From NCBI GenBank assembly GCA_017435565.1, contig JAFSEU010000023.1:1-64000 (forward strand): DNA of 64,000 nt. Direction: 5' to 3'. The position numbers and the translations under genes were made by a program. The DNA is from Oscillospiraceae bacterium. GTDB taxonomy: Bacteria > Bacillota > Clostridia > Oscillospirales > Ruminococcaceae. This document shows positions 3,204-47,900 of the stretch, piece after piece (the first letter of the stretch is position 1; each line of letters begins with the position of its first letter). Below the pieces are notes generated by a model. The model saw nothing but the letters and a program-made list of their open reading frames with translations. It was not told where the DNA came from and searched no databases.

Positions 3204-3267
3204 AGTGAAAACCGCCTTTCTTTATTTTTTGTTTGTTTATATCTGAATTTGCTTATTGACGCAAATG

Positions 3268-11608: not shown

Positions 11609-12832
11609 TTATTCAGCCGCAGGAACTGCGGGGTTATAGAAAACTTCCATATTAGCCGACTTCAATCCGAAGAAGCTACGGAAACGTTGCCCTTTGACTG
11701 TTACCTGATTGTCAACGTTGACTGAAGCGATATATCCGCCGTCGCCCTCGGTAAAGACAATCCAGTTTGCAGGGTCGCTTGAAAGAGTGATGCCAAGCTT
11801 TGATTCAAGCACGCTCTTTACATACTCTGCTGTGAAGTTTGTTTCTGTGCCGTAATGTGGGTCGTAAAGCTCATCATAGGGGCACTCAACGCTTCTTAAA
11901 TAAGGCAGGTCAGCTGTGAAGATATCCTTGCAGGAAGCCGAAGCACCGCCGCTTGAAGCGTAGAACTGCGAAAGAATGTACTGTCCGTCATAGAAGAGAG
12001 CCTGACCGAGAACCTCAGTTACAGCGTTTACAACATTTTCGGGCGGATTTGCTCTCATTCCGAGACCGCTTGCGCTTCCGCCGTTGTACATAACAAAGGT
12101 GTATGCCGCAACTGCCTGTGCCTTAATAGCCTCCGGGTGGAAGCTCGGACCGACTTCCTGGTTGCAGACCATTGAAATAATGTCGATTACATTTCCGGAA
12201 ACGCCGTTTACGGTAATGATTTCATCACCGGTAATTCCTGTGTTGGCAAGTGTTGCACCGGGGTAGAAGTGAGCGAGAATCTGAGCGTAATCATATCCGC
12301 CGTACATTGCAAAATAGTTTGCGCCGTTTTGGCTAAGGCCGCATCCGTGACCGTAGCCGTATGTCTTGAAGGTGAAGCCTGCGCCGTAAATTGAACTTGT
12401 GTCGCCTGTTGATGTATCCTCAGTAGTTGCGCTGTCAGTCGGTGCGGTGGTTGTAATTGCGGGCGCCGCCTGTGTTGAAACAACCGAGGTTGTCATTGCG
12501 GTTGTTGTAGTCGTTGTGGTCGTCGTAGTTGTGGTAGTTGTCGTGGTAGTGGTGACGAGTGCTTCGTAAAAATCATCATCGGCATAGGCCTTGTTCCACG
12601 TCATTACCACATATTCCGCATATTCCTGCTCGGGAACGGTAGTGGTTATTACCGGAGTATTGATTTTTACATTACCGGCGTAGTACTCGTTTGAAATTAT
12701 TACCGAGCCTTCGCTGATATGTGCTGAATCGTCATCTCCGCCGACAGTACCCACAAATGTGAATGCAAGACCGTAGAAAACGACCATTACAAGCACAGGT
12801 ATGAGCGACCTTAGCGGTAAAAGCTTTTTCAT
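11609..12832 (-). CDS. SpoIID/LytB-domain surface protein with apparently permuted motif order
   Basis: 407 residues: an N-terminal membrane anchor or signal (about 8-28), an 18-residue poly-Thr linker (94-111) and a SpoIID domain (about 155-400). SpoIID proteins are lytic transglycosylases that cut denuded glycan strands. The order is unusual. The signature GYGHGCGLSQNGA, normally near the C-terminus, sits at 159-171, ahead of the core with the candidate catalytic Glu226 (CNQEVGPSFHPEAIKAQAVAAYT), the YASSGGAS motif (about 291-298), YLRSVECPYD and the last strand block GQRFRSFFGLKSANM. The domain therefore looks circularly permuted. It lies 36 bases after a sortase gene and shares its Thr-rich linker style, suggesting a cell-envelope role rather than sporulation. 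Family assignment is firm; the function is inferred. Confidence 0.85.
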   Translation of the reverse strand: MKKLLPLRSLIPVLVMVVFYGLAFTFVGTVGGDDDSAHISEGSVIISNEYYAGNVKINTPVITTTVPEQEYAEYVVMTWNKAYADDDFYEALVTTTTTTTTTTTTTTTTTTAMTTSVVSTQAAPAITTTAPTDSATTEDTSTGDTSSIYGAGFTFKTYGYGHGCGLSQNGANYFAMYGGYDYAQILAHFYPGATLANTGITGDEIITVNGVSGNVIDIISMVCNQEVGPSFHPEAIKAQAVAAYTFVMYNGGSASGLGMRANPPENVVNAVTEVLGQALFYDGQYILSQFYASSGGASASCKDIFTADLPYLRSVECPYDELYDPHYGTETNFTAEYVKSVLESKLGITLSSDPANWIVFTEGDGGYIASVNVDNQVTVKGQRFRSFFGLKSANMEVFYNPAVPAAE

Positions 12833-12868
12833 TTAAAAAGTATGTCCTCTCATATTATGTTGGAAAAT

Positions 12869-13804
12869 TTACTCTTCGTAATTTTCTATATAGCTTCCGC
12901 CGTATATCTGGTAATATCTGTCCGGCATCAGCGGATTCGGATTGAGATATGCATCGGTTACGCCGTCGAATTCATCCTCGCCTTCGCGCAGGCGCCTTGC
13001 ATATACAACAAACCGTGAATCATCGAATTCAACTGTGCAGGTCGAAAGCGTGAGTAATTTGTCACCATATTCGACATCAACGCCGCTGACTATGAGCGAA
13101 CGCTTGAGCACTTCGTTCACATACCAGTCGAAATCCTCTTGGGTTTCAAAATTGTGGTATGTGTGGTAGTAGAAAACGGGACCATCCTTTTCGTATGCGT
13201 TTGTAATCATATACGCAAAAATTTTGTAATAATAGGTCTCGTAATTCGATTTTATTTCAATAATAGGGTATTGCTTATAAAACTCAATGTTGTTCTTATA
13301 ATAATGCAGATGTGAAAAATAGTCGTTCAAAGCGGTGTGATGTCCGTACAGGACAAGGTTGTCACTTTGAAGATCTTCATCAGCACCGAAATTACATCTG
13401 TAATCGGCATAGACCGTGCCGTATCTGTAATAATCACCGAAAAAGTCGGTTTCAAGATAATAAGAATTATCAAGGCACTGTGCAAAGGGATAATCGATAT
13501 TTGTTCCCTCGATATAAATTCGCCCGATATTATCGGGATTGGTTGCAAGAAGTGCGCTTGCCTCGTCGGAAAGCTCAATCTGCGGTGCGCTGACACTCTC
13601 AAAAGCGGTTGTGGTGGTAGTCACAGCAGTGACGATGGTAGTTGTTGAAGTGACAGACGGTGATGTTGTCTGCACATCGGTAGCCGAATCATTGCTTTTG
13701 CTGCAGGCTGTAAAAAAGCTCAGCAGAGCAATCGCTGCAGCGGAAGCTGCAATAAATTTCACAGAAATCGGGCTGTCCTTTTCTTGATTTATATGTTTAT
13801 TCAT
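12869..13804 (-). CDS. Class B-like sortase with lipoprotein-type N-terminus
   Basis: 311 residues. Sortases cleave a sorting signal and join the protein to the cell wall or to a pilin. Catalytic residues are visible: His155 in LVLYGHH, Cys256 in TLSTC and Arg264 in SRFVVYARR. The spacing, and the GTVYADYRCNF block before the His, fit class B. The N-terminus is odd: a hydrophobic segment (about 15-33) ends in FTAC, an imperfect lipobox (Cys34), then a Ser/Thr-rich linker (about 40-70), whereas most sortases have a plain N-terminal helix. It lies between cinA (9-base gap) and the SpoIID-like gene (36-base gap), so the three are one operon. No sorting-signal protein is visible in this window. 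Confidence 0.87.
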   Translation of the reverse strand: MNKHINQEKDSPISVKFIAASAAAIALLSFFTACSKSNDSATDVQTTSPSVTSTTTIVTAVTTTTTAFESVSAPQIELSDEASALLATNPDNIGRIYIEGTNIDYPFAQCLDNSYYLETDFFGDYYRYGTVYADYRCNFGADEDLQSDNLVLYGHHTALNDYFSHLHYYKNNIEFYKQYPIIEIKSNYETYYYKIFAYMITNAYEKDGPVFYYHTYHNFETQEDFDWYVNEVLKRSLIVSGVDVEYGDKLLTLSTCTVEFDDSRFVVYARRLREGEDEFDGVTDAYLNPNPLMPDRYYQIYGGSYIENYEE

Positions 13805-13813
13805 ATCGGATTA

Positions 13814-14368
13814 TTACTCGTTATGTGAGATAAGCTCATCTAAAATTTCAAAAACGCATTGGCATGTATATCTGCGAACCTTCTCTCTGTCGGAAAGCTT
13901 CATTTCGCTAAGCCTTAAGAGGCAGGCGAATTCAGCATCTTTATAAGAAAAGCCACAGTATACTGTTCCGACAGGCTTTTCTTCGGTTCCGCCTGAAGGA
14001 CCTGCAATCCCCGTGACGGAAACACCGATATCGCTTTTTGCAAGAGTTTTAATACCCTTTGCCATTTCAAGAGCGACCTCGCAGCTCACAGCACCGTGAT
14101 TTTCAAGGCTTTCAGACTTCACGCCGAGAAGCTGCATTTTTGCGTTGTTGGCATATGTGCAAACGCCCATATCAAAAACGCTTGAAGCATTCGGTACGCT
14201 TGTGATAAGCTGACTTATCATACCGCCTGTACAGCTTTCCGCCGTTGCGATTTTCAAAGACTTATCTAACAGTAATTTTACTATATCTGTAACCGTTTTG
14301 TCAAGATTTTGAGGGGTATGTTTGGGCAAATAACCCTTTTCAGATAACACTTTCGCTTGATTTTTCAC
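13814..14368 (-). CDS. CinA C-terminal family nicotinamide-nucleotide amidohydrolase (PncC-type)
   Basis: 184 residues consisting of the CinA-C domain only. PncC deamidates nicotinamide mononucleotide to nicotinate mononucleotide in pyridine nucleotide salvage. Family motifs are IATAESCTGGMIS with the catalytic Ser, 'GVCTYANNAKMQLLGV' and VSVTGIAGPSGGTEEKPVGTV. The start is GTG at 14368 with GGTGA five bases upstream; about 22 residues precede the usual domain start. It is the first gene of an operon with the sortase and SpoIID-like genes, with no obvious functional link to them. Confidence 0.9.
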   Translation of the reverse strand: MKNQAKVLSEKGYLPKHTPQNLDKTVTDIVKLLLDKSLKIATAESCTGGMISQLITSVPNASSVFDMGVCTYANNAKMQLLGVKSESLENHGAVSCEVALEMAKGIKTLAKSDIGVSVTGIAGPSGGTEEKPVGTVYCGFSYKDAEFACLLRLSEMKLSDREKVRRYTCQCVFEILDELISHNE

Positions 14369-14487
14369 ACATTCACCAAAAAACTATGTCCTAATACAAG
14401 ATTAAAAATTAACAAACAATGTACAAAAACAGCGTGATTATGCAGTTTTGTAACCACATTGTATCACTGTGTAACCGTTTTGTCAAG
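14288..14487. repeat. 18-base direct repeat carrying a -35-like element
   Basis: TGTAACCGTTTTGTCAAG occurs at 14288-14305, inside the cinA coding sequence, and again at 14470-14487, where its complement supplies the -35 of the operon promoter. The internal copy is followed on the minus strand by TAAAAT 18 bases on, so it could act as a second promoter. Confidence 0.6.
14458..14486 (-). promoter_or_regulatory. Promoter of the cinA-sortase-SpoIID operon
   Basis: On the minus strand, TTGACA (14486-14481) and TACAAT (14463-14458) are 17 bases apart. Confidence 0.75.
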
Positions 14488-14500
14488 TTTTCGGAAAACG

Positions 14501-14537
14501 AAAACAGCGGAAAAAAACGCAATTTTTCCGCTGTTTT
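14501..14537 (-). terminator. Terminator after thiI
   Basis: AAAACAGCGGAAAAA and TTTTTCCGCTGTTTT form a 15-bp stem between the thiI stop and the cinA promoter. The arms end in A and T runs, so it may work in both directions. Confidence 0.85.
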
Positions 14538-14590
14538 GTACAAAAAAATATATCGGATTTTGTGCAGGTTTGCTGTTGAAAAAGAAGAAA

Positions 14591-15763
14591 TCAAGATACC
14601 TGAATAAGTTCGGAGGTTGTATTTTCGACTGCTTGAACAATTAAAGGCTCAAAATTATATGCATTTTGCCCTTTTTCAATTTCCTCAAGCGAGGGTTTGG
14701 TCTTAGGGTGCTTCGGCGTGAATACCGTACAGCAGTCCTCGTAAGGCAGAACAGAGGTTTCAAAAGTATCGATTTTTCTGGCAATTTCAATAATCTCGGT
14801 CTTGTCCATTCCGACAACAGGTCGCAGAACGGGCATATGGCAAACCGCATCGGTGCATACCATAGCCTTCATAGTCTGGCTGGCAACCTGACCTACGCTT
14901 TCGCCGGTAATCAGCGCAACACATTCATCTTTTTTTGCAATTCTCTGTGCAATATCAAACATAATGCGGCGCATAATTATTGTAAAATACTCAGTCGGGC
15001 AGTTGTCCCTGATAGCTTCCTGAATTTCGGTAAAAGGCACGCAGAAAAGCATTATATTTCCGCAATAGCCCGTAAGTTTTTCGCAGAGCTTTACGACCTT
15101 GAGCCTTGCTCTTTCCGAAGTATAAGGCGGGCTGACAAAATGCACGGCAGAAATGTGAATGCCGCGCTTTGCCATCATATAGGCGGCAACGGGGCTGTCG
15201 ATACCGCCCGAAAGCAGAAGCATAGCGTTTCCGCTGGAGCCTACCGGCAGGCCACCTGCACCATCAATTCTTCCGGCGTGGATATATGCATTGGTATCAC
15301 GGATTTCAACGATTACGTCAACCTCGGCATTGTCCAGTGAAACGGAAAGGTGCGGATATTTTTCAAGAATACAGCCGCCAAGATTTGCACATATCGCAGG
15401 TGAATTCAAGGGGAATTTCTTATCTGCACGCTTTGCCGAAACACGGAAGGTTTTTGCATATTCAAGCGTTTCGCTTAAGTAGTCAAGCGTAATTTTGCAG
15501 ATTTCGTCAAAATCCTTGGGGGCAACAACACTCTTGCAGAGCTTTGCAATTCCGAAAACCTTGGAAAGCTTTTCGATAAGCTCGTCCGCGGTAATATTCT
15601 CGTTGGGCTCAATATATATGGTGGACTGTGCCTTTGTTATTGCAAATTTTCCGTAAGGTTTGAGCCTTTTGCGTATGTTTTTAATCAGAATATCTTCAAA
15701 AGTATTTCTGTTAAGCCCTTTCAGGGCGATTTCGCCATATTTGGCAAGAACAATTTCTTTCAT
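14591..15763 (-). CDS. thiI: tRNA 4-thiouridine synthase ThiI
   Basis: 390 residues: an N-terminal ferredoxin-like and THUMP region (about 1-165), then a PP-loop ATPase with LLSGGIDSPVAAYM near residue 183. ThiI adenylates U8 of tRNA and inserts sulfur received from a cysteine desulfurase; in many bacteria it also serves thiazole synthesis. The C-terminal rhodanese domain of the E. coli enzyme is missing, as usual in Firmicutes. It starts ten bases after iscS, the expected sulfur donor, in the operon cysteine synthase-iscS-thiI. Confidence 0.95.
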   Translation of the reverse strand: MKEIVLAKYGEIALKGLNRNTFEDILIKNIRKRLKPYGKFAITKAQSTIYIEPNENITADELIEKLSKVFGIAKLCKSVVAPKDFDEICKITLDYLSETLEYAKTFRVSAKRADKKFPLNSPAICANLGGCILEKYPHLSVSLDNAEVDVIVEIRDTNAYIHAGRIDGAGGLPVGSSGNAMLLLSGGIDSPVAAYMMAKRGIHISAVHFVSPPYTSERARLKVVKLCEKLTGYCGNIMLFCVPFTEIQEAIRDNCPTEYFTIIMRRIMFDIAQRIAKKDECVALITGESVGQVASQTMKAMVCTDAVCHMPVLRPVVGMDKTEIIEIARKIDTFETSVLPYEDCCTVFTPKHPKTKPSLEEIEKGQNAYNFEPLIVQAVENTTSELIQVS

Positions 15764-36673: not shown

Positions 36674-37621
36674 ATGAGCAGAAAAATTACGATAATCGGC
36701 GCAGGCAACGTAGGTGCTACAGTTGCGTATACACTTTCCAACGAGCATCTGGCTTCTGAAATCGTACTCATCGACATTGACAGGAAAAAGCTTCTCGGAG
36801 AAGTTATGGATATCGCACAGGGAACGGGATTTCGTGACCCTATATCCGTCGTTGCGGGTGATTATGAGGACGCAAAGGGCTCCGATATTGTCATCATTAC
36901 CTCGGGTATTGCGAGAAAGCCCGGACAGACAAGAATCGAGCTTGTGCAGACAAATGTTGATATTATCAAGGATATTACGCCGAAAATCGTTTCGCAGGCA
37001 CCGAATGCTCTGTATATAATCGTCAGCAATCCTGTTGATATCATAACCTATGTTTTCACAAAAATATCAGGTCTGCCCGAGAGACAGGTCATCGGTTCGG
37101 GAACGCTGCTTGATACAACACGTCTTCGTTCAACATTGGCAGGCATGTTCAATGTTTCGCAGAAAAATATCCACGCATATGTTTTCGGCGAGCACGGCGA
37201 TTCTTCGTTTGTTCCGTGGTCGCGCTGTGAGGTTTCCGGCTCGGAGTTCGACGCTTATGTCGAGTTGATGCTCGAAAGAGGTCAGCTCACCGAAAGACCT
37301 AACAAGTTTGCAATTACCGAGCAGATTCATACCTCGGGCTCGCAGATTATTGCCAACAAGGGCGCAACCTACTACGCTGTTTCCGTTGCAATCTGCCGTA
37401 TATGCAGTATGCTGCTGGCAGCTTATGACTCAATCGTTACCGTATCGAGCATGATGCACGGAGAATACGGAATCGATGATGTGTGCGTGAGCACGCTTTC
37501 GCTTATGGGACCTAAAGGCATTGTCGGAAAGGTTCCCGTAAAGCTTACAAAATACGAAATAGGACAGCTTCAGGCAAGCGCAAACAAGCTTAAAGAGGTT
37601 ATTGCACAGATTCATATATAA
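36674..37621 (+). CDS. LDH/MDH-family dehydrogenase, predicted malate dehydrogenase
   Basis: 315 residues of the L-lactate/malate dehydrogenase superfamily: NAD loop IIGAGNVGATVAY (7-19), acidic NAD-selecting end of strand 2 (VLIDID), catalytic His174 in FGEHGDSS, Asp147 and Arg150 in LLDTTRLRS, and substrate Arg87. Overall it looks LDH-like, but the specificity position, Gln102 in lactate dehydrogenases, is Arg81 here (GIARKPGQTR), the residue that selects oxaloacetate/malate in MDH. It lies 25 bases upstream of hdrB, in a unit that also codes fumarase and a fumarate reductase. The predicted reaction is oxaloacetate + NADH to malate. Automatic annotation would probably say lactate dehydrogenase. 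A GGAGAG site precedes the ATG. Confidence 0.85.
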   Translation: MSRKITIIGAGNVGATVAYTLSNEHLASEIVLIDIDRKKLLGEVMDIAQGTGFRDPISVVAGDYEDAKGSDIVIITSGIARKPGQTRIELVQTNVDIIKDITPKIVSQAPNALYIIVSNPVDIITYVFTKISGLPERQVIGSGTLLDTTRLRSTLAGMFNVSQKNIHAYVFGEHGDSSFVPWSRCEVSGSEFDAYVELMLERGQLTERPNKFAITEQIHTSGSQIIANKGATYYAVSVAICRICSMLLAAYDSIVTVSSMMHGEYGIDDVCVSTLSLMGPKGIVGKVPVKLTKYEIGQLQASANKLKEVIAQIHI

Positions 37622-37646: not shown

Positions 37647-38441
37647 ATGGCATTGAAATACAGCTACTACCCGGGGTGCACATTGAAAAATAAGGCTAAA
37701 AGCCTTGATATCACAGCGCGCAAATGTGCATCTGCTTTGGGGTTTGAGCTTGAAGAAATAGAAAACTGGCAGTGCTGCGGCGGTGTTTATCCATTGGGAA
37801 GCGATGAAATTGCGACAAAGCTTTCAAGCGTGCGTGCTCTTGATTATGCCAAGAGCAAAAGTCAAAAGCTTGTAACGCTTTGCTCTGCTTGCCATCACGT
37901 TATAAAGCGTGTGAATGATGATATGAAAAACGTTCCCGATACAAGAATGCGTGCCAACAATTATTTAAAGCTTGATACGCCCTATTGCGGAGAAACACAG
38001 GTTCTGCATTATCTTGAGGTTCTGCGTGATGAAATCGGGTTTGATAATATCGCAAAGGCTGTAAAAAACCCCTTAAAGGGTGTGAAAATCGGTGCGTATT
38101 ATGGCTGTATGCTTCTGCGCCCTTCGAAAATAATGGAATTTGACAACCCCGAAAATCCGCAGATTATGGAGGATTTTATCAAGGCACTTGGCGCACAAAG
38201 TGTGATTTTTCCCTACAGGAATGAATGCTGCGGCGGTCACGTTGCGTTAAAATCACCTGAAAGTGCGCAGAAATTAAGCGGCAAGGTGACTCGAAGCGCC
38301 GAAGGCTTCGGCGCAGATATGCTTATTACCGCCTGCCCCTTGTGCCTGTATAATCTTAATAAGAATTCACAAAGCGATATTCCCGTATATTATTTTACCG
38401 AGCTTCTTGCAAAGGCTCTCGGGATTGATTCGGAGGAATGA
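37647..38441 (+). CDS. hdrB: HdrB-like subunit with two CCG domains
   Basis: 264 residues. Both cysteine-rich CCG motifs are complete: Cys11, Cys43-Cys44, Cys79, Cys82; and Cys154, Cys194-Cys195, Cys230, Cys233. In methanogen HdrB these hold two non-cubane [4Fe-4S] clusters that split the CoM-S-S-CoB disulfide. The TfrB subunit of methanogen thiol:fumarate reductase ends in a homologous domain. Here hdrB is followed by hdrC and hdrA within six-base gaps and leads into fumarate reductase genes. This organism is not expected to have CoM or CoB, so the natural partner is either another disulfide or direct electron transfer to the fumarate reductase. The GGAG site before the ATG is good. Confidence 0.93.
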   Translation: MALKYSYYPGCTLKNKAKSLDITARKCASALGFELEEIENWQCCGGVYPLGSDEIATKLSSVRALDYAKSKSQKLVTLCSACHHVIKRVNDDMKNVPDTRMRANNYLKLDTPYCGETQVLHYLEVLRDEIGFDNIAKAVKNPLKGVKIGAYYGCMLLRPSKIMEFDNPENPQIMEDFIKALGAQSVIFPYRNECCGGHVALKSPESAQKLSGKVTRSAEGFGADMLITACPLCLYNLNKNSQSDIPVYYFTELLAKALGIDSEE

Positions 38442-38447
38442 AACGCA

Positions 38448-38828
38448 ATGAGCAACAGAGAAGAAAAAGTTTTGCAAATCAGCGGTGTTAATCCAAGAAA
38501 GTGTATGAAATGCGGAAAATGCTCGGCTTCGTGTCCTTCCTATGATGAAATGGATATAAAACCGCATCAGTTTGTTTCATATGTTTTAAACGGGCGCACT
38601 AAAGCACTTGCCGAAAGCAAATCGGTTGAAAAGTGCCTTGCGTGCTTTGCCTGCGTTGAACGCTGCCCGAGAAATGTTGAACCCGCAAAAATTATCGACG
38701 CGGCACGCCAGCTTAATGTAAGACAGCGCTATGGAGATACCTTAAGCGCGAACGATATTCCTTCGCTTATTGATGAAGATACTCCGCAGCAGCTTCTTGT
38801 CAGCGCATTCAGAAAGTATAAAAGGTGA
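38448..38828 (+). CDS. hdrC: HdrC-like iron-sulfur subunit
   Basis: 126 residues with two classical [4Fe-4S] motifs: Cys19, 22, 25, 29 (CMKCGKCSASCP) and Cys63, 66, 69, 73 (CLACFACVERCP). HdrC wires electrons between HdrA and HdrB. Its length is shorter than the methanogen protein but usual for bacterial Hdr sets. It starts six bases after hdrB, and its stop region contains the ribosome site of hdrA. Confidence 0.93.
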   Translation: MSNREEKVLQISGVNPRKCMKCGKCSASCPSYDEMDIKPHQFVSYVLNGRTKALAESKSVEKCLACFACVERCPRNVEPAKIIDAARQLNVRQRYGDTLSANDIPSLIDEDTPQQLLVSAFRKYKR

Positions 38829-38833
38829 GATAT

Positions 38834-40822
38834 ATGCAGAGAATTGGTGTTTTTGTATGTCATTGCGGAAGCAACATTGCGGCGACTGTCGATGTTAAAA
38901 GAGTAGCACTTGCAATGCTTTCAGAAAACGGCGTTGTTTTTGCCGATGATTATCAGTATATGTGCTCTGAATCGGGCCAGTTGAAAATTGCGCAGGCAGT
39001 AAAAGAGCATAATCTTACAGGACTTGTAATCTGCTCGTGTTCACCGAGAATGCACGAGGCAACCTTCAGAAAGGCTGCCGAAAAAGCAGGCATAAACCCG
39101 TATATGGTTGAAATTGCAAATATCCGTGAGCAGTGCTCGTGGATTCATAAGGATATAGAGCAGGCAACACAGAAGGCAATTATTCTTGCAAGGGCGGCTG
39201 TTGCAAAGGTTAATCTCAACTCACCGCTTATCGCAGGCAAAAGTCCCGTAAAAAAGCGTGCGCTTGTAATTGGCGGCGGCATTGCGGGTATTCAGACTGC
39301 ACTTGATATTGCCGATGCAGGCTTTGAGGTTGATATTGTCGAAAAAACTCCGAGCATAGGCGGCAAAATGTCACAGCTTGACAAGACATTCCCCACACTT
39401 GATTGCTCGGCTTGTATTCTTACACCTAAAATGGTTGATTGCGCCGCACACGAAAAAATTACGATTTTTACCTATAGCGAGGTGGAAAATGTAAGCGGCT
39501 TTGTGGGCAATTTTACAGTTGATATAAAGAAAAAAGCCCGTTATGTAGATTCGGCAAAGTGTACCGGCTGCGGACTTTGCCAGGAAAAGTGTCCTTCCAA
39601 AAAGGCTTTGAGTGAATTTAACTGCGGTCTTTCAAACAGAAGCGCAATTTATACTCCGTTTGCACAGGCTGTACCCAATGTTCCCGTAATTGATCCTTTA
39701 CAGTGTATTAAGCTGAAAACGGGCAAGTGCGGTCTTTGCGAAAAGGTGTGCGCTGCAAACGCAATTGATTATACCCAGAAAGATGAAATCATCACCCGTG
39801 AATACGGCGCAATTGTCGTAGCAACAGGTTTTGATGTGATAAATCTTGATAATTATGATGAATATGCCTATTCGCAGAGCAAGGATGTAATTACCTCTTT
39901 GGAGCTTGAGCGTATTATGAACGCGGCAGGCCCCACAAAAGGACATCTTGAGCGTATGTCCGATGGAAAAGCGCCCAAGAATATCGTATTTGTTCAGTGT
40001 GTGGGCAGCAGATGCGCAGATAACAAGGGCAAGAGCTATTGTTCAAAAATCTGCTGTATGTATACCGCAAAGCACGCAATGCTTATCAGAGATAAATACC
40101 CCGATGTCAACGTCAGCGTATTTTATATTGACGTGCGTACACCGGGTAAGAATTTTGATGAATTCTACAGACGTGCCGTTGAAGAATACGGCGTTAACTA
40201 TATCAAAGGTCAGGTCGGAAAAGTAACGCCTGAACCCGATGGCTCGCTCACCGTTCACGGCGTTGACCTTATAGATGGAAGACAGGTTAAAATCAGCGCC
40301 GATATGGTTGTGCTTGCGGCGGCGATCGAGCCGAACGCTTCGGTTCGTCAGCTTGCAACACAGCTTACGGCAAGTATTGATACAAATAATTTCCTTACAG
40401 AAGCGCACCCCAAGCTGCGCCCTGTTGAATCGCCCACTGCAGGTGTTTTCCTTTCGGGCGTATGTCAGGGACCGAAAGATATTCCCGAAACTGTTTCACA
40501 GGCGGGTGCTGCCGCTGCAAAGGTTATCGGACTTCTTGCGAAAAATGAACTTACAACCAACCCATGCACGGCACATTCCGATGAGCTTTTGTGCAACGGC
40601 TGCTCAGCTTGCGCAAATGTCTGCCCATATGGTGCAATATCCTATCAGGATAAGGAAGTAAATGACCACGGTATACGTGAAACAAGACGAATTGCAATGG
40701 TTAACACGGCACTTTGTCAGGGCTGCGGTGCCTGCACCGTAACTTGCCCTTCGGGCGCTATGGATTTAAACGGATTTTCAAATAAACAGATTATTGCGGA
40801 GGTGGATGCGATATGCCGATGA
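38834..40822 (+). CDS. hdrA: HdrA-like flavin-based electron-bifurcating subunit
   Basis: 662 residues from the ATG at 38834 (AAAGGTGAG upstream), equal to methanogen HdrA. Layout: an N-terminal cluster domain with Cys9, Cys11, Cys44, Cys67, Cys69 and Cys101; a thioredoxin-reductase-like FAD domain with VIGGGIAGIQTA (147-152 loop) and the CSACILTPKM segment; an inserted ferredoxin pair (Cys243/246/249/253 and Cys291/299/302/306); and a C-terminal ferredoxin pair (Cys587/590/593/597 and Cys628/631/634/638). All cluster sites of bifurcating HdrA are kept. HdrA's FAD splits electron pairs, one to a high-potential acceptor through HdrC/HdrB and one to ferredoxin through its own clusters. It overlaps the next gene by ten bases. 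Confidence 0.94.
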   Translation: MQRIGVFVCHCGSNIAATVDVKRVALAMLSENGVVFADDYQYMCSESGQLKIAQAVKEHNLTGLVICSCSPRMHEATFRKAAEKAGINPYMVEIANIREQCSWIHKDIEQATQKAIILARAAVAKVNLNSPLIAGKSPVKKRALVIGGGIAGIQTALDIADAGFEVDIVEKTPSIGGKMSQLDKTFPTLDCSACILTPKMVDCAAHEKITIFTYSEVENVSGFVGNFTVDIKKKARYVDSAKCTGCGLCQEKCPSKKALSEFNCGLSNRSAIYTPFAQAVPNVPVIDPLQCIKLKTGKCGLCEKVCAANAIDYTQKDEIITREYGAIVVATGFDVINLDNYDEYAYSQSKDVITSLELERIMNAAGPTKGHLERMSDGKAPKNIVFVQCVGSRCADNKGKSYCSKICCMYTAKHAMLIRDKYPDVNVSVFYIDVRTPGKNFDEFYRRAVEEYGVNYIKGQVGKVTPEPDGSLTVHGVDLIDGRQVKISADMVVLAAAIEPNASVRQLATQLTASIDTNNFLTEAHPKLRPVESPTAGVFLSGVCQGPKDIPETVSQAGAAAAKVIGLLAKNELTTNPCTAHSDELLCNGCSACANVCPYGAISYQDKEVNDHGIRETRRIAMVNTALCQGCGACTVTCPSGAMDLNGFSNKQIIAEVDAICR

Positions 40823-41256
40823 ACAGCACAGAGAGCTTTGCTCCCAAAATTGTTGCTTTTTGCTGCAACTGGTGCAGCTATGCAGGCGCAGACCTTGCGG
40901 GAAGCAGCCGTCTGGCATATCCTGCCGATGTGAAAATTATCAAGGTGCCCTGCTCGTGCAGGGTAAACCCCATGTTCATACTCCGTGCATTTGAAAAGGG
41001 CGCCGATGGTGTCATCATCTGCGGTTGTCACCCGGGTGACTGCCATTACAGCACGGGCAACTATTATGCCCGTCGCCGAATGACCTTGCTGTTTTCAATG
41101 CTTGAATATATCGGCATTGAAAAGGACAGAGTCAGAGTTGAATGGGTTTCTGCCGCCGAAGCGGTGAAATTTTCCGAAACAATGAACAGCTTTGTCTTGC
41201 AGATAAAAAATCTCGGCGAAAACGTCAGATTGGGGGATCTTCGATGCAAGAGCTGA
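40813..41256 (+). CDS. flxD: MvhD/FlxD-type [2Fe-2S] connector subunit
   Basis: 147 residues of the MvhD family: cysteines in FCCNWCSYAGAD (17, 18, 21), PCSCRV (47, 49) and CGCHPGDCHY (70, 72, 77), which bind a [2Fe-2S] cluster in MvhD. In methanogens it links the hydrogenase to HdrA; in bacterial HdrABC-FlxABCD it links the NAD(P)H module to HdrA. The start at 40813 is supported by GGAGGT nine bases upstream, inside the end of hdrA. Overlaps on both sides (ten and 13 bases) indicate coupling. Confidence 0.92.
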   Translation: MPMNSTESFAPKIVAFCCNWCSYAGADLAGSSRLAYPADVKIIKVPCSCRVNPMFILRAFEKGADGVIICGCHPGDCHYSTGNYYARRRMTLLFSMLEYIGIEKDRVRVEWVSAAEAVKFSETMNSFVLQIKNLGENVRLGDLRCKS

Positions 41257-42206
41257 AAAACCGTATAAAGCAGCTTATGGAAGAAAATGTGGCGCAGCGT
41301 GCCTTAGGCTGGAAAAAAGGTGAATTCGGATATGATGCGCAAGCGGCGTTTTTTGAAAGCACCGATGAGCTTGACGATTTTGTTTATAACGGATTTTGCG
41401 GTGCAAATTTAAGCAAGTATATGATAGAAGCGTGCAAAAAGGAAGGCAGAACCATAATCTGCTTAAAGCCGTGCGATACCTACAGCTTCAACCAGCTGCT
41501 GAAGGAACACAGAATACAGCGTGAAAAAGCATATATTATCGGCGTTGGCTGCAAGGGCACGCTTGATATTTCAAAAATAAAAGCAAACGGTATTGAGGGT
41601 ATTGTTGATATAGAAGGCGCAGATATGTTTTCATCTGAAAATCTGCTTAAAATCAAGACCGTTTATGGCGATCACGAACTTGCCTACAGCGATGCTCTGC
41701 TTGAAAGATGCAATTGCTGCAAGGGCAAGGAGCATATGATTTTTGATGAAATCATCGGCGAAAGTGCCGATACCGTATCTGCCGACAGATTTGAGCAGAT
41801 TGAAAAAATTGAACAGCTGACATCAATCGAAAAGTTTGAATTTTTCAGAAACGAGCTTTCAAAGTGCATTCGCTGCAACGCCTGCCGCAATGCGTGTCCT
41901 GCGTGCAATTGCCGCAAATGCGTGTTCGACAGTGATAAATTCGACAGCGCACAAAAAGCAAATTCCGATTCGTTTGAAGAAAAAATGTTTCACATTATCC
42001 GTGCGTTTCACGTTGCGGGAAGATGTACAGACTGCGGCGAATGTTCAAGAGTATGTCCGCAGAATATTCCGCTGCACCTTTTCAACCGCAAGTTCATCAA
42101 GGATATAAATATGCTTTACGGTGATTTTAGTGCGGGAAGCAACTGCGAAGAAAACTGCCCGCTTACATCATATTCATTCGATGATGCCGAACCGGGAAAA
42201 ATCTGA
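41244..42206 (+). CDS. Flx-type 4Fe-4S subunit (FlxB/FlxC group), coenzyme F420 hydrogenase beta-like N-half
   Basis: 320 residues from the ATG at 41244 (TTGGGGGA upstream). The N-terminal half (1-195) resembles the FrhB/FdhB-like domain seen in bacterial Hdr gene sets, with Cys73, Cys77, Cys103 and CNCC (156-159). The C-terminal half has two ferredoxin motifs, Cys208/211/214/218 and Cys261/264/267/271, plus a further cysteine cluster ACNCRKC between them. It probably carries electrons from the flavin subunit to FlxD. Which Flx letter applies is uncertain. It overlaps flxD by 13 bases and the next gene follows after 29. Confidence 0.85.
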   Translation: MQELKNRIKQLMEENVAQRALGWKKGEFGYDAQAAFFESTDELDDFVYNGFCGANLSKYMIEACKKEGRTIICLKPCDTYSFNQLLKEHRIQREKAYIIGVGCKGTLDISKIKANGIEGIVDIEGADMFSSENLLKIKTVYGDHELAYSDALLERCNCCKGKEHMIFDEIIGESADTVSADRFEQIEKIEQLTSIEKFEFFRNELSKCIRCNACRNACPACNCRKCVFDSDKFDSAQKANSDSFEEKMFHIIRAFHVAGRCTDCGECSRVCPQNIPLHLFNRKFIKDINMLYGDFSAGSNCEENCPLTSYSFDDAEPGKI

Positions 42207-42235
42207 AAAAAGCATAAATTACGGTGATTTGTATT

Positions 42236-43258
42236 ATGAAAAAAATCAATCTTAATAAATTGAAAGAGCTTTTTGCGTATATTTCAGAAAAAAGCTCACT
42301 GTTTCTGCCGATAGAATCTGCCAATAGTATAAATTTCGGGATGTATGACGAAAAGGCAAAGGTGCGTCTTGATGTTTTAAAAACATCAAAATCTCCGAAG
42401 GATCTGTTCTTTCCGCAGAGCGAAACGCTTTATTCCTGCCAGAGTGCAAAGGGAAAAATTTCAATAGAGCCACAGGCTTTGCAAAACGATGAATTTGTGG
42501 TTTTTGGTATGAAAAACTGCGATTTTGCGGCGCTTGAAATTCTTGATAAGGTTTTCCTTTCCGAGCCTGTTGATACATTTTATAAGGCACGCAGAGATAA
42601 TGCCACAATTGTAACGCTTGCCTGCGCAAGACCTTCCGAAAGCTGCTTCTGCAAGGCTTATGGTATAGATTGCGCACAAGGCGCAGGCGATGTATCTGCG
42701 TGGATTATCGGCGAATATTTCTATTGGTGCGCAAATACTCAAAAAGGCGTTGCTCTTTTGGAAAAAACAGCACATCTTTTTGAAGATGCCGATGAGGCGG
42801 ATGTTGAAAGCGCCAAGGCGCAGATTCGTGATATTGTTGCAAAAATGCCGCTTATGTCGCTTGATTTGAAAAACTGGGGCAAGGGCAAAACTGCCGAAAA
42901 GTTTGATTCGCCCTTGTGGGATGAGCTTTATAAGCCCTGCCTTGCGTGCGGAACCTGCACTTTTGTGTGCCCTACCTGCCAGTGCTATGATATTAAGGAT
43001 TATAAAGCAGGCGAAAAAGTTGTGCGTTATCGCTGCTGGGATTCGTGTATGTATTCCGATTTTACAATGATGGCGCACGGCAACAACCGTACAAGCCAGA
43101 TGCAGCGCTTCAGACAGCGCTTTATGCACAAGCTTGTGTATTTTCCTGATAATAACGATGGCGTTTTCTCGTGCACAGGCTGCGGCAGATGCGTTGACAA
43201 ATGCCCTGCATCATTAAATATAGTCAAAGTCATAAAGGCATTTGACAAGGAGGCGTGA
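42236..43258 (+). CDS. Flx-type 4Fe-4S subunit (FlxB/FlxC group), AsrA-like
   Basis: 340 residues from the ATG at 42236 (GGTGA upstream). It resembles anaerobic sulfite reductase subunit A and hydrogenase beta-type proteins: an N-terminal alpha/beta domain with Cys95 and the cluster CARPSESCFC, then two ferredoxin motifs, Cys235/238/241/245 and Cys313/316/319/323, separated by a conserved 'YRCWDSCMYSDFTMMAHG' block. AsrA-like proteins pass electrons between an NAD(P)H/FAD subunit and a partner, matching the next gene. No siroheme sulfite reductase catalytic subunit is present, so this is not an asr operon. Confidence 0.86.
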   Translation: MKKINLNKLKELFAYISEKSSLFLPIESANSINFGMYDEKAKVRLDVLKTSKSPKDLFFPQSETLYSCQSAKGKISIEPQALQNDEFVVFGMKNCDFAALEILDKVFLSEPVDTFYKARRDNATIVTLACARPSESCFCKAYGIDCAQGAGDVSAWIIGEYFYWCANTQKGVALLEKTAHLFEDADEADVESAKAQIRDIVAKMPLMSLDLKNWGKGKTAEKFDSPLWDELYKPCLACGTCTFVCPTCQCYDIKDYKAGEKVVRYRCWDSCMYSDFTMMAHGNNRTSQMQRFRQRFMHKLVYFPDNNDGVFSCTGCGRCVDKCPASLNIVKVIKAFDKEA

Positions 43259-43260
43259 AA

Positions 43261-44115
43261 ATGAGCGAATGTACTTGTCATAAGGATTATAAGCTTGATA
43301 CTTTAGTGCCGCAAATCGGCGTGATAACAGATATTACAGACGAAACACCCGATGTAAAAACCTTTAAGGTGCAAGCTCTGGGCGGCGGCAAGCTTTTTGA
43401 GCATATGCCCGGACAATGCGCAATGCTTTGCGTGCCGGGAATAAGCGAAGCTATGTTTTCGATAACTTCTTCGCCCACAAATAAAGAATATCAGGAATTC
43501 AGCATAAAAAAATGCGGCAGTCTTACAAATTATCTGCATGAGATGAACGTTGGCGACCAGATTGCAGTACGTGGACCTTACGGAAATCATTTTCCCGTGG
43601 AAGATGAGCTTTTGTCAAAGGATTTGCTTTTTATTGCAGGCGGTATCGGTCTTGCACCCTTGCGCAGTGTGATAAACTATGTTCTGGATAACAGAGAAAA
43701 ATACGGCAAGGTTGATATACTTTACGGCTCACGCTCAAAGCAGGACCTTGTAAAACTGCAGGAAATTGAAACTGTATGGAAAAATGCAAAGGATGTTGAC
43801 GTTCACCTGACTATTGATAATCCGCAGGATGACTGGGATGGTCATGTTGGATTTGTTCCGAGTTATCTTGAAGAGCTTGCGTTTTCAAATGACAGAACCG
43901 TGCTTGTCTGCGGACCGCCCGTTATGATAAAGTTTGTTCTGCAATCGCTGAAGAAAATGGGCTTTAGCGATGATAAAATCTATACCACATTTGAACTCAG
44001 AATGAAATGCGGAATAGGTAAATGCGGAAGATGTAACATCGGTTCAAAATATGTCTGCAAGGACGGACCTGTTTTCAGAAACGATGAAATCGAAGAATTA
44101 CCGAATGAATATTAA
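43261..44115 (+). CDS. flxA: FlxA-like NAD(P)H:FAD oxidoreductase subunit
   Basis: 284 residues from the ATG at 43261, with GGAGGC six bases upstream. It is a ferredoxin-reductase-type protein: an FAD barrel (MFSITSSPT around 65-73), a pyridine-nucleotide domain with GGIGLAPLRS (127-136) and VCGPPVM, and a C-terminal [2Fe-2S] motif (Cys250, 255, 258, 266). AsrB and dihydroorotate dehydrogenase PyrK are relatives. In the D. vulgaris HdrABC-FlxABCD complex FlxA is the NAD(P)H entry point. The choice between NADH and NADPH cannot be made from sequence. It completes the Flx set, 15 bases before the fumarate-reductase iron-sulfur gene. Confidence 0.9.
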   Translation: MSECTCHKDYKLDTLVPQIGVITDITDETPDVKTFKVQALGGGKLFEHMPGQCAMLCVPGISEAMFSITSSPTNKEYQEFSIKKCGSLTNYLHEMNVGDQIAVRGPYGNHFPVEDELLSKDLLFIAGGIGLAPLRSVINYVLDNREKYGKVDILYGSRSKQDLVKLQEIETVWKNAKDVDVHLTIDNPQDDWDGHVGFVPSYLEELAFSNDRTVLVCGPPVMIKFVLQSLKKMGFSDDKIYTTFELRMKCGIGKCGRCNIGSKYVCKDGPVFRNDEIEELPNEY

Positions 44116-44130
44116 AGGAGAACCGTAAAT

Positions 44131-44805
44131 ATGGCTGATATGGTAAATGTGTTCTTTTTCGGAAAAAAATACAGCGTTCCCGCTGATATGACAGTTATGA
44201 CGGCGATGGAATACGCAGGTTATACCTTAAAAAGAGGCTGCGGATGCCGCCACGGCTTTTGCGGTGCGTGCGCTACAATTTACAGAATAAAGGGCGATAA
44301 CGAGCTTAAAACCTGTCTTGCCTGCCAGAAGCAGGTTGAAGACGGTATGTATGTTGCAAGCATCCCGTTTTTTCCCACAGATAAAAGAGCTTATGATATA
44401 AATCAAATCAAGCCTACACAGCAGATTATGATGGAGCTTTATCCCGAAATTTACAGCTGTATCGGCTGCAATGCCTGCACAAATGCCTGCACACAAAAGC
44501 TTGATGTTATGCATTATATTGCATATGCCCAGCGAGGCGAGTTTGAAAAGTGCGCTGAAGAATCCTTTGACTGCGTGGGCTGTGGCTGCTGTTCGGTGCG
44601 CTGCCCTGCAGGTATTTCTCACCCTATGGTAGGTGTGCTTGCAAGAAGACTTACAGGAAAATATTTAGCCCCCGAAACCTTGCACCTTAAAGATCGTGTA
44701 GAGCAGGTAAACAGCGGCGCTTTTGATGAGCTTATCGAGCAGGTTATGCAAAAGCCCATTACCGAAATGAAAGAGCTTTATAACAACAGAGATATAGAGA
44801 AATAA
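44131..44805 (+). CDS. Fumarate reductase-type iron-sulfur subunit, soluble (TfrB N-half-like)
   Basis: 224 residues. A plant-type [2Fe-2S] site (Cys39, 44, 47, 62; CRHGFCGAC) is followed by two complete four-cysteine ferredoxin motifs, Cys110/113/116/120 and Cys148/151/154/158. Ordinary succinate dehydrogenase or fumarate reductase B subunits have one [4Fe-4S] and one [3Fe-4S]; here the motifs predict two [4Fe-4S], as in the front half of methanogen TfrB. There is no CCG domain attached; that domain is supplied separately by hdrB in the same operon. It should wire electrons to the flavoprotein coded next. No frdC/frdD or sdhC membrane anchor exists in the operon. Confidence 0.9.
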   Translation: MADMVNVFFFGKKYSVPADMTVMTAMEYAGYTLKRGCGCRHGFCGACATIYRIKGDNELKTCLACQKQVEDGMYVASIPFFPTDKRAYDINQIKPTQQIMMELYPEIYSCIGCNACTNACTQKLDVMHYIAYAQRGEFEKCAEESFDCVGCGCCSVRCPAGISHPMVGVLARRLTGKYLAPETLHLKDRVEQVNSGAFDELIEQVMQKPITEMKELYNNRDIEK

Positions 44806-44822: not shown

Positions 44823-46424
44823 ATGTTTACTCAGACAATGCTTGAATCAATCAAAAAAGTCGAAAGCACAAGATCGGCACGAATCGGCGCTGTGCTTGAA
44901 AGAATGAGCGCAAAAGAGAAGGAAGAGCTTTTAAAGGCATATCACCCCGATCATCGTGAAGATGGCTTTGATACTATAAAAATCGGGCCGAATGCAGGTC
45001 AGAAGGCACCTTGCGAGCTTGTAAAGCTCCTTCATTCAAACAGCCGTATTTTAAATGAAAATATCGACCTTTCCAAAATTGATTATGACGTTGATGTTCT
45101 TGTAATAGGCGGAGGCGGTGCCGGTGCTTCGGCTGCAATTGAAGCGCACAACGCAGGCGCTGATGTTATGATTGTTACAAAGCTGCGAATAGGCGATGCC
45201 AACACTATGATGGCAGAAGGCGGAATTCAGGCGGCTGACAAGCCCAACGATTCTCCCGTGCAGCATTATATAGATGCATTCGGCGGCGGCCATTTTGCCG
45301 CAAGACCCGAATTGCTCAGAAGACTTGTAATGGAAGCTCCCGATGCAATTGCATGGCTCAATTCCCTGGGCGTTATGTTCGATAAGGATGAAAACGGCGA
45401 TATGGTAACAACCCATGGCGGCGGAACTTCCAGAAAGAGAATGCACGCCTGCAAGGATTATTCAGGCGCAGAAATTATGCGCAATCTGCGTGATGAAGTT
45501 TTAAACAGAAAAATTCCCGTTGTTGATTTTACCTCGGCAGTAGAACTGATTATGGATGACAAGGGGCAGGCGGCAGGTGCTGTTCTGCTTAATATGGAAA
45601 CAGGGGATTATCTGGTAGCACGCGCTAAAACCGTAATTATCGCAACAGGCGGTGCAGGCAGACTGCACTACCAGAATTTCCCCACATCAAATCACTATGG
45701 TGCCACAGCTGATGGACTTGTTCTCGGCTATCGTGCAGGTGCCCCTTTGCTTTATCAGGATACCATTCAGTATCATCCCACAGGTGTGGCTTATCCTTCA
45801 CAGCTTTTCGGAGCGCTTGTTACTGAAAAGGTACGTTCGCTTGGCGCTATGCTTGTAAATGTCAACGGGCAGGCATTTATGCATCCGCTTGAAACACGAG
45901 ATGTTGCGGCAGCCGCAATCATCCGTGAATGCTCTGACAGAAAATTGGGCGTAAATACACCTCTTGGAAGCGGAGTCTGGCTTGATACCCCGATGATTGA
46001 GATTATAGGCGGAGAAGGCACAATTGAAAAGCGTATTCCTGCAATGCTTAGAATGTATATGAATTATGGCATTGATATGCGTAAAGTCCCGATTCTTGTT
46101 TATCCTACTCTTCATTATCAGAACGGCGGACTTGAAATCAACGGCGAAGGCTTTACGAATACAATACCCAATCTGCTTGTTGCAGGCGAGGCCGTAGGCG
46201 GAATTCACGGAAGAAACCGTCTTATGGGCAATTCTCTGCTTGATATTATTGTTTTCGGAAGAAACGCAGGCAAAAAGGCAAGCGCAAAGGCAAAGGAAAT
46301 CACTTTGGGCAAGCTTTCTCTTTCACATCTTGAAAAATATGCAAAAGAACTTGAAGAAGCAGGTATAGCTACAGATTGTGTTTCGCCGATGCTTTTGCCC
46401 GATTATACACGCCACGAAAGATAA
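44823..46424 (+). CDS. Fumarate reductase flavoprotein subunit, soluble (TfrA-like)
   Basis: 533 residues of the SdhA/FrdA family. FAD loop GGGGAGASAA (96-105), QYHPTG (316-321), the Arg359 of ETRD, HYQNGG (431-436) and HGRNRLMGNS (462-471) cover the substrate-binding His and Arg set, so it should reduce fumarate. The His that bonds FAD covalently in membrane FrdA/SdhA is Asn127 here (GDANTMMAEGG), so FAD is probably non-covalent, as in methanogen TfrA and L-aspartate oxidase. An extra N-terminal 80 residues precede the FAD domain. Pathway logic (malate dehydrogenase, fumarase and this) points to fumarate reduction to succinate. L-aspartate oxidase is excluded by the neighbours and the iron-sulfur partner. 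Confidence 0.92.
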   Translation: MFTQTMLESIKKVESTRSARIGAVLERMSAKEKEELLKAYHPDHREDGFDTIKIGPNAGQKAPCELVKLLHSNSRILNENIDLSKIDYDVDVLVIGGGGAGASAAIEAHNAGADVMIVTKLRIGDANTMMAEGGIQAADKPNDSPVQHYIDAFGGGHFAARPELLRRLVMEAPDAIAWLNSLGVMFDKDENGDMVTTHGGGTSRKRMHACKDYSGAEIMRNLRDEVLNRKIPVVDFTSAVELIMDDKGQAAGAVLLNMETGDYLVARAKTVIIATGGAGRLHYQNFPTSNHYGATADGLVLGYRAGAPLLYQDTIQYHPTGVAYPSQLFGALVTEKVRSLGAMLVNVNGQAFMHPLETRDVAAAAIIRECSDRKLGVNTPLGSGVWLDTPMIEIIGGEGTIEKRIPAMLRMYMNYGIDMRKVPILVYPTLHYQNGGLEINGEGFTNTIPNLLVAGEAVGGIHGRNRLMGNSLLDIIVFGRNAGKKASAKAKEITLGKLSLSHLEKYAKELEEAGIATDCVSPMLLPDYTRHER

Positions 46425-46444: not shown

Positions 46445-47287
46445 ATGCGTGAAATAAATACAGCACTTATTACCGATACAGTAGAAAAGCTTTGCATTGA
46501 AGCAAACCTTCATCTGCCATGCGATGTTAAATGTGCAATAAAAAAGTGCAGAGAATGTGAAGATGGCAACCTTGCAAAGAATATCTTAGATGATATTATA
46601 AGAAATTATGAAATTGCAGATGCAGAAAATGTTCCGATTTGTCAGGATACGGGAATGGCTTGTGTATTTTTGGAAATCGGTCAGGATGTGCACATTGTCG
46701 GCGGTGATTTGTATGAAGCAATTCACGAAGGTGTTCGCAGGGGCTATACAAACGGATATCTTCGCAAGTCCGTAGTTAAAGACCCTGTTCGCCGTGGAAA
46801 CACGGGCGACAACACACCTGCAATGATTTATGTCGATATAGTTCCCGGTGAAAATATCAGAATCACAGTAGGTCCCAAGGGCTTTGGCAGTGAGAATATG
46901 AGTGCAATCCGTATGTTCAAGCCTTCGGCAGGCTTGCAGGGAATTAAGGATTTTATTCTTGAAACCGTAGAAAATGCAGGTCCCAACCCTTGCCCGCCCA
47001 TGGTTGTCGGCGTTGGAATAGGTGGTACTTTCGATAAAGCGGCGCTGCTTGCAAAAAAAGCGCTGATGCGCCCTGTTGATTCAAAAAACCCCGATCCTTT
47101 CTATGCAGAGCTTGAAGAAGAAATGCTTGAAAAAATCAACAAGCTCGGAATAGGCCCGCAGGGCTTTGGCGGCAAAACAACCGCTATAGGTCTTAATATC
47201 GAAACGTTACCCACACACATTGCAGGAATGCCCTGTGCTATAAATATAAATTGTCACGTTACACGTCACAAAACGGAGGTGCTCTGA
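46445..47287 (+). CDS. Class I fumarase alpha subunit
   Basis: 280 residues from the ATG at 46445 (GAAGGTG upstream). It is the N-terminal half of class I, oxygen-labile [4Fe-4S] fumarases, with likely cluster cysteines Cys66 (ICQDTGMAC), Cys183 (NPCPPMVVGVGIGG) and Cys270. It interconverts malate and fumarate with the beta subunit coded next. L-tartrate dehydratase alpha is a close relative; the malate dehydrogenase and fumarate reductase in the same operon favour fumarase. Four bases separate it from the beta gene. Confidence 0.93.
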   Translation: MREINTALITDTVEKLCIEANLHLPCDVKCAIKKCRECEDGNLAKNILDDIIRNYEIADAENVPICQDTGMACVFLEIGQDVHIVGGDLYEAIHEGVRRGYTNGYLRKSVVKDPVRRGNTGDNTPAMIYVDIVPGENIRITVGPKGFGSENMSAIRMFKPSAGLQGIKDFILETVENAGPNPCPPMVVGVGIGGTFDKAALLAKKALMRPVDSKNPDPFYAELEEEMLEKINKLGIGPQGFGGKTTAIGLNIETLPTHIAGMPCAININCHVTRHKTEVL

Positions 47288-47290
47288 TTT

Positions 47291-47851
47291 ATGGAAAAGC
47301 ATATTAAGCTTCCGCTTACAAAAGAGCTTGCGCAAACCCTTAAAGCAGGCGACAGAGTATATCTTACGGGTGAGATTTATACCTCGCGTGATGCAGGCCA
47401 CAAGCGTATGTGCGAGGCGCTGGCTTCAGGCGAAAAGCTACCTTTTGATCCTGAAAATGCAACAATATACTATGTTGGTCCCACACCTGCAAAGCCGGGT
47501 GAGGTAATCGGTTCGGCAGGCCCCACAACAAGCGGCAGAATGGATGCTTATGCCCCGACAATGATGTCTGTGGGAGCAAGAGGAATGATCGGCAAGGGCG
47601 CACGTCTGCCTGAAGTTGTTGAAGCTATGAAAGAATACAGCGGCGTGTATTTCGGCGCGATCGGCGGCGCAGGCGCTTTGCTTGCAAAGTGCATAAAAAG
47701 TGCCGAGCTTATTGCATATGAAGACCTTGGCGCCGAAGCTTTAAGAAAGCTTTATGTTGAAGAAATGCCCCTAATTGTAATTATTGATTCACAAGGCAAT
47801 AATCTTTATGAAATCGGCAGAAGCGAATATCTTACAAATGCTGAAAACTGA
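47291..47851 (+). CDS. Class I fumarase beta subunit
   Basis: 186 residues, the C-terminal half of class I fumarase. Signatures are 'YVGPTPAKPGEVIGSAGPTTSGRMD' in outline, 'MMSVGARGMIGKG' and 'FGAIGGAGALLAKCIKSA'. It forms the substrate-binding swivel domain that joins the alpha subunit. It is the last gene of the twelve-gene unit; a strong terminator follows after 11 bases. Confidence 0.94.
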   Translation: MEKHIKLPLTKELAQTLKAGDRVYLTGEIYTSRDAGHKRMCEALASGEKLPFDPENATIYYVGPTPAKPGEVIGSAGPTTSGRMDAYAPTMMSVGARGMIGKGARLPEVVEAMKEYSGVYFGAIGGAGALLAKCIKSAELIAYEDLGAEALRKLYVEEMPLIVIIDSQGNNLYEIGRSEYLTNAEN

Positions 47852-47861
47852 GCAAAAAAAC

Positions 47862-47900
47862 CAACACCTTCGGAAAAAATTCCGAAGGTGTTGTTTTTTT
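47862..47900 (+). terminator. Strong terminator closing the mdh-hdr-flx-frd-fum operon
   Basis: CAACACCTTCGGAA (47862-47875) and TTCCGAAGGTGTTG (47880-47893) form a perfect 14-bp stem followed by eight T. The A run on the other side lets it also serve the convergent flippase gene. Confidence 0.95.

Follow-up and report, generated by a model that had tools for sequence, protein, structure and literature searches.

The flavoprotein encoded at 44823-46424 on the plus strand of the analysed stretch of DNA (64,000 nucleotides, hereafter the window) and its iron-sulfur partner, FrdA and FrdB, probably form the fumarate-reducing end of a soluble HdrABC-FlxABCD complex, in which electrons from NADH would enter through Flx, reach HdrA and be split there between ferredoxin and fumarate. 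That FrdBA is a soluble, NADH-driven fumarate reductase served via Flx-Hdr appears to us highly probable, and true electron bifurcation by the FrdBA-Hdr-Flx complex is, on balance, likely. Most likely, an Oscillospiraceae bacterium of the gut, devoid of quinones, makes succinate from NADH while charging ferredoxin.

The two fumarate reductase genes are embedded in an unbroken plus-strand operon of the order MDH-HdrB-HdrC-HdrA-FlxD-FlxC-FlxB-FlxA-FrdB-FrdA-FumA-FumB, the distance between adjacent genes ranging from -13 to +25 bp, and a terminator-like hairpin followed by a T run, read in the sequence, closes it (47863-47900; AACACCTTCGGAA/TTCCGAAGGTGTT, then T). In the malate/lactate dehydrogenase family, an Arg at the substrate position is of the malate type and a Gln of the lactate type. 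The first gene of the operon (36674-37621, 25 bp from the next) encodes a member of this family (Pfam Ldh_1_N/C), probably a malate dehydrogenase (MDH): it scores over the NCBIfam cut-off as an L-lactate dehydrogenase, but this naming is argued against by its substrate residue Arg81 in the motif IARKPG. Since Arg likewise precedes KPG in 38 of 38 neighbouring homologues, the L-lactate dehydrogenase label on genes of this type is likely a widespread mis-naming. At the other end, the alpha subunit of a two-subunit class I fumarase (46445-47287, with the start codon chosen at 46445; Pfam Fumerase, E 1.2e-120) is followed by the open reading frame of the beta subunit (47291-47851), which directly follows FumA in relatives as well, mostly at 83-90% identity. 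With MDH, fumarase and FrdBA in one run, the path from oxaloacetate via malate and fumarate to succinate would be encoded by a single operon, and fumarate would be supplied from oxaloacetate by the neighbouring MDH and fumarase. None of the operon's proteins contains a transmembrane-like stretch, the highest 19-residue Kyte-Doolittle mean being 1.59.

FrdA (533 residues; ATG start, open frame and a good ribosome site) is a member of the FAD_binding_2 superfamily (Pfam, E 1.8e-68). Alignment with E. coli FrdA bore out two claims of a first-pass annotation made from the letters of the window, namely that (i) the position of the FAD-linked His is taken by Asn127, which lies opposite His45 (counting Met; His44 of the mature chain; DANT-MMAEGG vs RSHT-VAAEGG), and (ii) the substrate residues are kept, in that H318, T334/E335, R338, R359, H431 and R466 lie opposite substrate-binding or catalytic residues of the E. 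coli enzyme. Each of N127, H318, E335, R338, R359, H431 and R466 is found in 160 of 160 homologous loci; 80 of these owe their selection to the patterns GDANTMM/AEGGIQAA, which biases them for Asn127, so that only the other 80, retrieved by whole-protein or profile search, are independent for this residue. A one-off chance substitution at the FAD site is ruled out by the invariance of Asn127 in the family. When 26 flavoproteins are placed in a phylogeny, all members of the family fall into a single clade (100/99), which sits on a long branch, with long branches leaving the nearest outgroup unplaced, and relatives outside the clade with the motif KAHTVMAEGG retain the His.

In the MFR (SdhABE) of Wolinella, a periplasmic, quinol-oxidising membrane enzyme with a second [4Fe-4S] cluster, the FAD His is replaced by Ala86; the FAD is bound non-covalently, the Ala-to-His change creates the flavin bond, and in several enzymes the loss of this bond accompanies loss of succinate oxidation (PMC2680327). 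By analogy with these findings, FrdA of the operon should bind FAD non-covalently and run mainly toward succinate.

FrdA also differs in architecture from the classical, covalently flavinylated SdhA/FrdA proteins, whose C-terminal helical domain (PF02910) gave no Pfam match in the open reading frame: the chain stops about 45 residues past the core, so that over 100 residues at the C terminus of E. coli FrdA are without counterpart in the alignment. An N-terminal extension of about 85 residues (residues 1-85; window 44823-45080) is conserved and present in all family members. This domain carries the family-wide motif RMTAxEK..LL..YHPD...IGPNKG.K.P.EL, is absent from E. coli FrdA and is predicted with good confidence. 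Beginning near residue 72, the predicted structure of FrdA (mean pLDDT 77.8) can be superposed on those of flavocytochrome c3 and E. coli FrdA, residues 1-71 being barely covered by structural searches; since residues 127-142 and 196-213 fall below a pLDDT of 50, the model is unsuited to reading the geometry of the FAD site.

The FrdB-type iron-sulfur subunit (44131-44805) contains one [2Fe-2S] and two [4Fe-4S] motifs and is devoid of the C-terminal CCG half of TfrB; consistently, the NCBIfam TfrB model covers only residues 12-81. The ligands of the [2Fe-2S] cluster (C39/44/47/65) are kept in all 152 readable loci, and those of the two cubanes (C110/113/116/120 and C148/151/154/158), all eight of them, in 153 of 153, in agreement with the earlier claim of two full four-cysteine motifs. 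The second cubane motif reads CVGCGCCSVRC as compared with CTFVGYCSEVC in E. coli FrdB, which has Val at the second position; the motifs were compared by eye, a pairwise MAFFT alignment having misplaced the clusters. The predicted structure of FrdB (pLDDT 53) was discarded.

Upstream of FrdB, one cluster encodes HdrA, HdrB, HdrC, an MvhD-like FlxD and an FlxA of NADH-binding type, as in FlxABCD-HdrABC systems. The HdrB-like protein (37647-38441; Pfam CCG) has two CCG domains with all ten ligand Cys, nine of which are present in 69 of 69 loci and the tenth, C11, in 66 of 66 readable ones. It matches HdrB in the PDB (8rvv_B, E 5.5e-34), scores 148 bits with the NCBIfam model MFR_anch_SdhE (cut-off 500) and 140 bits with HdrB, both under cut-off, and is, judged from its sequence, homologous to SdhE, the anchor of MFR. 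The HdrC-like protein (38448-38828) carries two [4Fe-4S] motifs in Fer4 domains, with all eight Cys invariant. HdrA (38825-40822), an FAD and [4Fe-4S] protein and the presumed bifurcating site, aligns over its entire length with the HdrA structure 5odc_A of the PDB (E 2.5e-205), both ferredoxin-type cluster regions being intact. Its K416 (61 of 61 readable loci) and E362 (59 of 59) are the counterparts of K409 and E356 in the HdrA from M. thermolithotrophicus, a Lys and a Glu at the FAD N5 position that have been proposed as markers of bifurcating HdrA (PMC12054007); being present in most HdrAs, they are weak discriminators. The Flx part comprises the electron entry protein FlxD/MvhD (40813-41256; Pfam FlpD, E 1.7e-55), an FlxC-like protein with a 4Fe-4S dicluster (41244-42206), whose nearest solved structures are formate dehydrogenase beta subunits in Hdr-associated entries, an FlxB-like iron-sulfur protein of the AsrA/sulfhydrogenase beta family (42224-43258; Fer4_22, E 2.3e-30; ShyB/HydB/AsrA models), and an FlxA-like NAD(P)H:flavin oxidoreductase of the AsrB/DHODB electron-transfer family (43255-44115; NAD_binding_1, FAD_binding_6, DHODB_Fe-S_bind), the presumed NADH site.

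The draft genome (96.5% complete, 33 contigs) contains no recognisable quinone pathway, since a search for the UbiA prenyltransferase (PF01040), which was found in all 14 control genomes, gave no match genome-wide. Likewise, neither Sdh_cyt (PF01127, SdhC type) nor Fumarate_red_C (PF02300, FrdC type) was found anywhere in this draft, so that the anchor of a classical complex II and a recognisable quinone pathway are both missing; a quinone-binding anchor encoded elsewhere in the genome, which would have refuted the first-pass annotation, was thus looked for and not found. Its statement that no anchor gene is present therefore holds for the FrdC/D and SdhC types but has to be amended for SdhE, a homologue of which is present as HdrB. 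Similarly, its conclusion of a soluble, protein-fed, quinone-independent enzyme is well supported, although the argument then offered was insufficient because the quinone-linked MFR shares two of the three features invoked (the missing FAD His and the second [4Fe-4S] cluster); it is the contiguous Hdr-Flx genes, together with the failure to find SdhC/FrdC or UbiA anywhere in the genome, that argue for quinone independence. That reading missed the Hdr-Flx context and stopped short of naming a donor. The gene content of the operon suggests NADH, feeding in by way of Flx-HdrABC and probably with bifurcation. The sole other full-length FAD_binding_2 protein in the genome is NadB, encoded within nadABC, and candidates for ferredoxin sinks are two PF03116 (Rnf/Nqr-type) proteins and an FeFe hydrogenase.

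A profile search for the FrdA family in 398 genomes of the phylum separated cleanly: 39 genomes contained it, with a total of 40 full-length loci scoring no less than about 690 bits, and nothing else exceeded 287 bits, the lower matches covering the core only; within the order, the family occurs in 43 of 297 genomes. The best 80 named loci share 74-85% identity and stem from gut Clostridia, e.g., Blautia, Mordavella and [Clostridium] asparagiforme. All 55 named loci with enough upstream DNA, which are the closest relatives by construction, have the nine Hdr-Flx-Frd genes in identical order, where locus counts do not equal independent species and one genome may recur via two collections. FumAB lies directly downstream of FrdA in 58 of 72 loci, and an MDH/LDH-like gene is in reach in 35 of 51. 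The Hdr-Flx-Frd block is common in gut Clostridia.

Distant FrdBA pairs of Bacillota (53-63% identity) reside in varied gene settings: a full Hdr-Flx block (L167), HdrC-HdrB alone (L155, L159, L160), HdrB-HdrC-HdrA following FrdBA (L158, L161, L162), or a fumarase without Hdr (L154, L157, L164, L166). This variety marks FrdBA as a portable soluble module that is fixed to Hdr-Flx in the relatives of the window. The loci with HdrC-HdrB only would agree with a direct contact between HdrB and FrdB, by analogy with the homologous SdhE in MFR. At two further loci (L152, 1778-7736; L153, 2018-7819), FrdBA is located directly behind a 1144-residue pyruvate carboxylase-like protein, a name based on the first part of its sequence, and no Hdr, Flx or fumarase gene is nearby. 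One genome (G386) carries two FrdA copies of the family in different neighbourhoods (L164 and L165), the latter without a recognisable adjacent FrdB. At another locus (L171), a soluble-type FrdA (3183-4811) is followed 8 kb on (12265-15589) by a second flavoprotein with its partner and two short SdhC/SdhD-like proteins.

Judged from its family, FlxA would oxidise NADH, and electrons would pass via the clusters of FlxB, FlxC and FlxD to the FAD of HdrA, which would split each pair, one electron going to ferredoxin and the other by way of HdrC and HdrB to FrdB. From FrdB they would reach the non-covalently bound FAD of FrdA, where fumarate would be reduced to succinate, the net reaction being 2 NADH + fumarate + Fd(ox) -> 2 NAD+ + succinate + Fd(red, two electrons), and ferredoxin may be reoxidised by an Rnf-type complex or the FeFe hydrogenase. 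The sequences themselves establish the gene order, the motifs, their conservation and the lack of SdhC/FrdC and UbiA genes, and from these we infer complex formation, NADH as the donor, bifurcation, direct HdrB-to-FrdB transfer and the flavin linkage. Standard potentials of -320 mV for NADH and +33 mV for fumarate (quoted in PMC5861303) make ferredoxin-coupled bifurcation feasible, without demonstrating it. For the scheme as a whole, i.e., NADH:ferredoxin/fumarate bifurcation with direct HdrB-to-FrdB transfer and no disulfide, by a free FrdBA module that joined HdrABC-FlxABCD to become, in gut Clostridia, a widespread succinate route that yields energy as reduced ferredoxin, we see about even chances.

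If HdrABC served as a mere wire, the same complex would be a simple soluble NADH:fumarate reductase that maintains redox balance and stores no energy. The occurrence of FrdBA without HdrA in other lineages would be in line with this, as would the NADH:fumarate activity of Pelotomaculum, which is soluble (35.7 vs 5.7 mU/mg in membranes; likened here by its activity) and was reported without ferredoxin coupling (PMC10308238). This activity would equally suit the NADH-driven reductase of our preferred reading. However, a plain reductase would need neither a complete HdrA with the proposed bifurcation residues nor the two ferredoxin-type regions, all of which are strictly kept, and we consider a non-bifurcating complex rather unlikely. 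Against bifurcation with direct transfer it must be said that other Bacillota possess FrdBA in the absence of both Hdr and Flx, so that other donors can serve, and that the ten catalytic Cys retained in HdrB are compatible with a disulfide acting as substrate between the Hdr and Frd parts. These Cys would also suit two separate enzymes, Flx-HdrABC reducing a disulfide (of a small thiol or a DsrC-like protein) and FrdBA using the resulting dithiol in the manner of methanogen Tfr with CoM-SH/CoB-SH; among the NCBIfam models, TfrA indeed fits the flavoprotein best, and for the Riftia symbiont a DsrC-like carrier has been published as one option (PMC11636981). Yet FrdB lacks the thiol-oxidising CCG half of TfrB, which leaves FrdBA alone without a thiol site, and the strict linkage of the nine genes likewise makes two enzymes improbable.

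It is even less credible that the enzyme is a quinone-linked one of the MFR/SdhABE type with HdrB as an SdhE-like membrane anchor. The non-covalent FAD, the second [4Fe-4S] cluster and the HdrB-like anchor of MFR (PMC2680327), along with the 148 bits of HdrB against the anchor model, lend this idea its appeal, but HdrB stays far below the cut-off of 500, HdrC, HdrA and Flx are attached, hydrophobic stretches are lacking and the genome has no UbiA for a quinol donor. If the ferredoxin coupling of our preferred reading is real, reducing fumarate provides quinone-free organisms with energy by way of ferredoxin (and Rnf), and current assumptions on the energy and redox balances of succinate-forming gut bacteria change. 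The conservation in 55 of 55 loci, including those of Blautia, Mordavella and [Clostridium] asparagiforme, makes a published hypothesis testable in culturable organisms.

E. coli FrdABCD shares the fold and all substrate residues with FrdA of the window, but has the covalent FAD His, a [3Fe-4S] cluster, membrane subunits and menaquinol as donor. Flavocytochrome c3 is not known to carry the C-terminal helical domain of classical FrdA, a domain that FrdA of the window lacks. The enzyme from Shewanella, soluble and with non-covalent FAD (PMC2680327), gives the top structural Z-score for the predicted core of FrdA (33.5; 383 residues; r.m.s.d. 2.8) but has a haem domain where FrdA has an Fe-S partner. 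MFR shares with the window the replaced FAD His, two [4Fe-4S] motifs and an HdrB-like third protein, but is quinone-linked and periplasmic, and has Ala where FrdA has Asn. Methanogen TfrAB resembles FrdBA in providing the best NCBIfam match (TfrA, 333 bits) and in its HdrB/HdrC-type partners; membership in Tfr was nevertheless rejected, as the score lies far under the cut-off of 718, the C-terminal flavoprotein domain is absent from FrdA, and the CCG part is encoded by an HdrB gene of its own rather than in one chain with FrdB.

Fumarate reductase genes linked to Hdr-Flx or Hdr-Mvh, for which a functional coupling or a direct transfer of electrons has been suggested, are known as tfrAB-flxABCD-hdrABC clusters from tubeworm symbionts and Thioflavicoccus (PMC6315080; a similar Frd-Hdr link is also proposed in PMC11636981) and as tfr with hdr and mvh from Cloacimonadota (PMC8542988). 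There, TfrAB belongs to rTCA carbon-fixation clusters with OGOR, whereas the window operon, with its MDH and fumarase and an FrdB devoid of the TfrB-type CCG half, looks like a succinate branch. Our literature search found no report of bifurcation by a purified Flx-Hdr-linked fumarate reductase. The closest counterpart is the 'succinate operon' of Pseudoclostridium thermosuccinogenes, for which transcription and a redox interpretation have been given (PMC7282089), and a 2019 preprint (Koendjbiharie and van Kranenburg), as cited there, proposes that a new type of fumarate reductase takes part in electron bifurcation. Compared by description, that operon likewise unites fumarase, a seven-gene Flx-Hdr block and a two-gene fumarate reductase with the same proposed ferredoxin coupling, but has the fumarase at the opposite end and is described without mention of an MDH (PMC7282089). 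Hence, the window operon belongs to an already proposed, still unproven kind, to which the present analysis adds its strict conservation in gut Clostridia, the modular FrdBA variants elsewhere in the phylum, and the N-terminal domain and absent C-terminal domain of FrdA.
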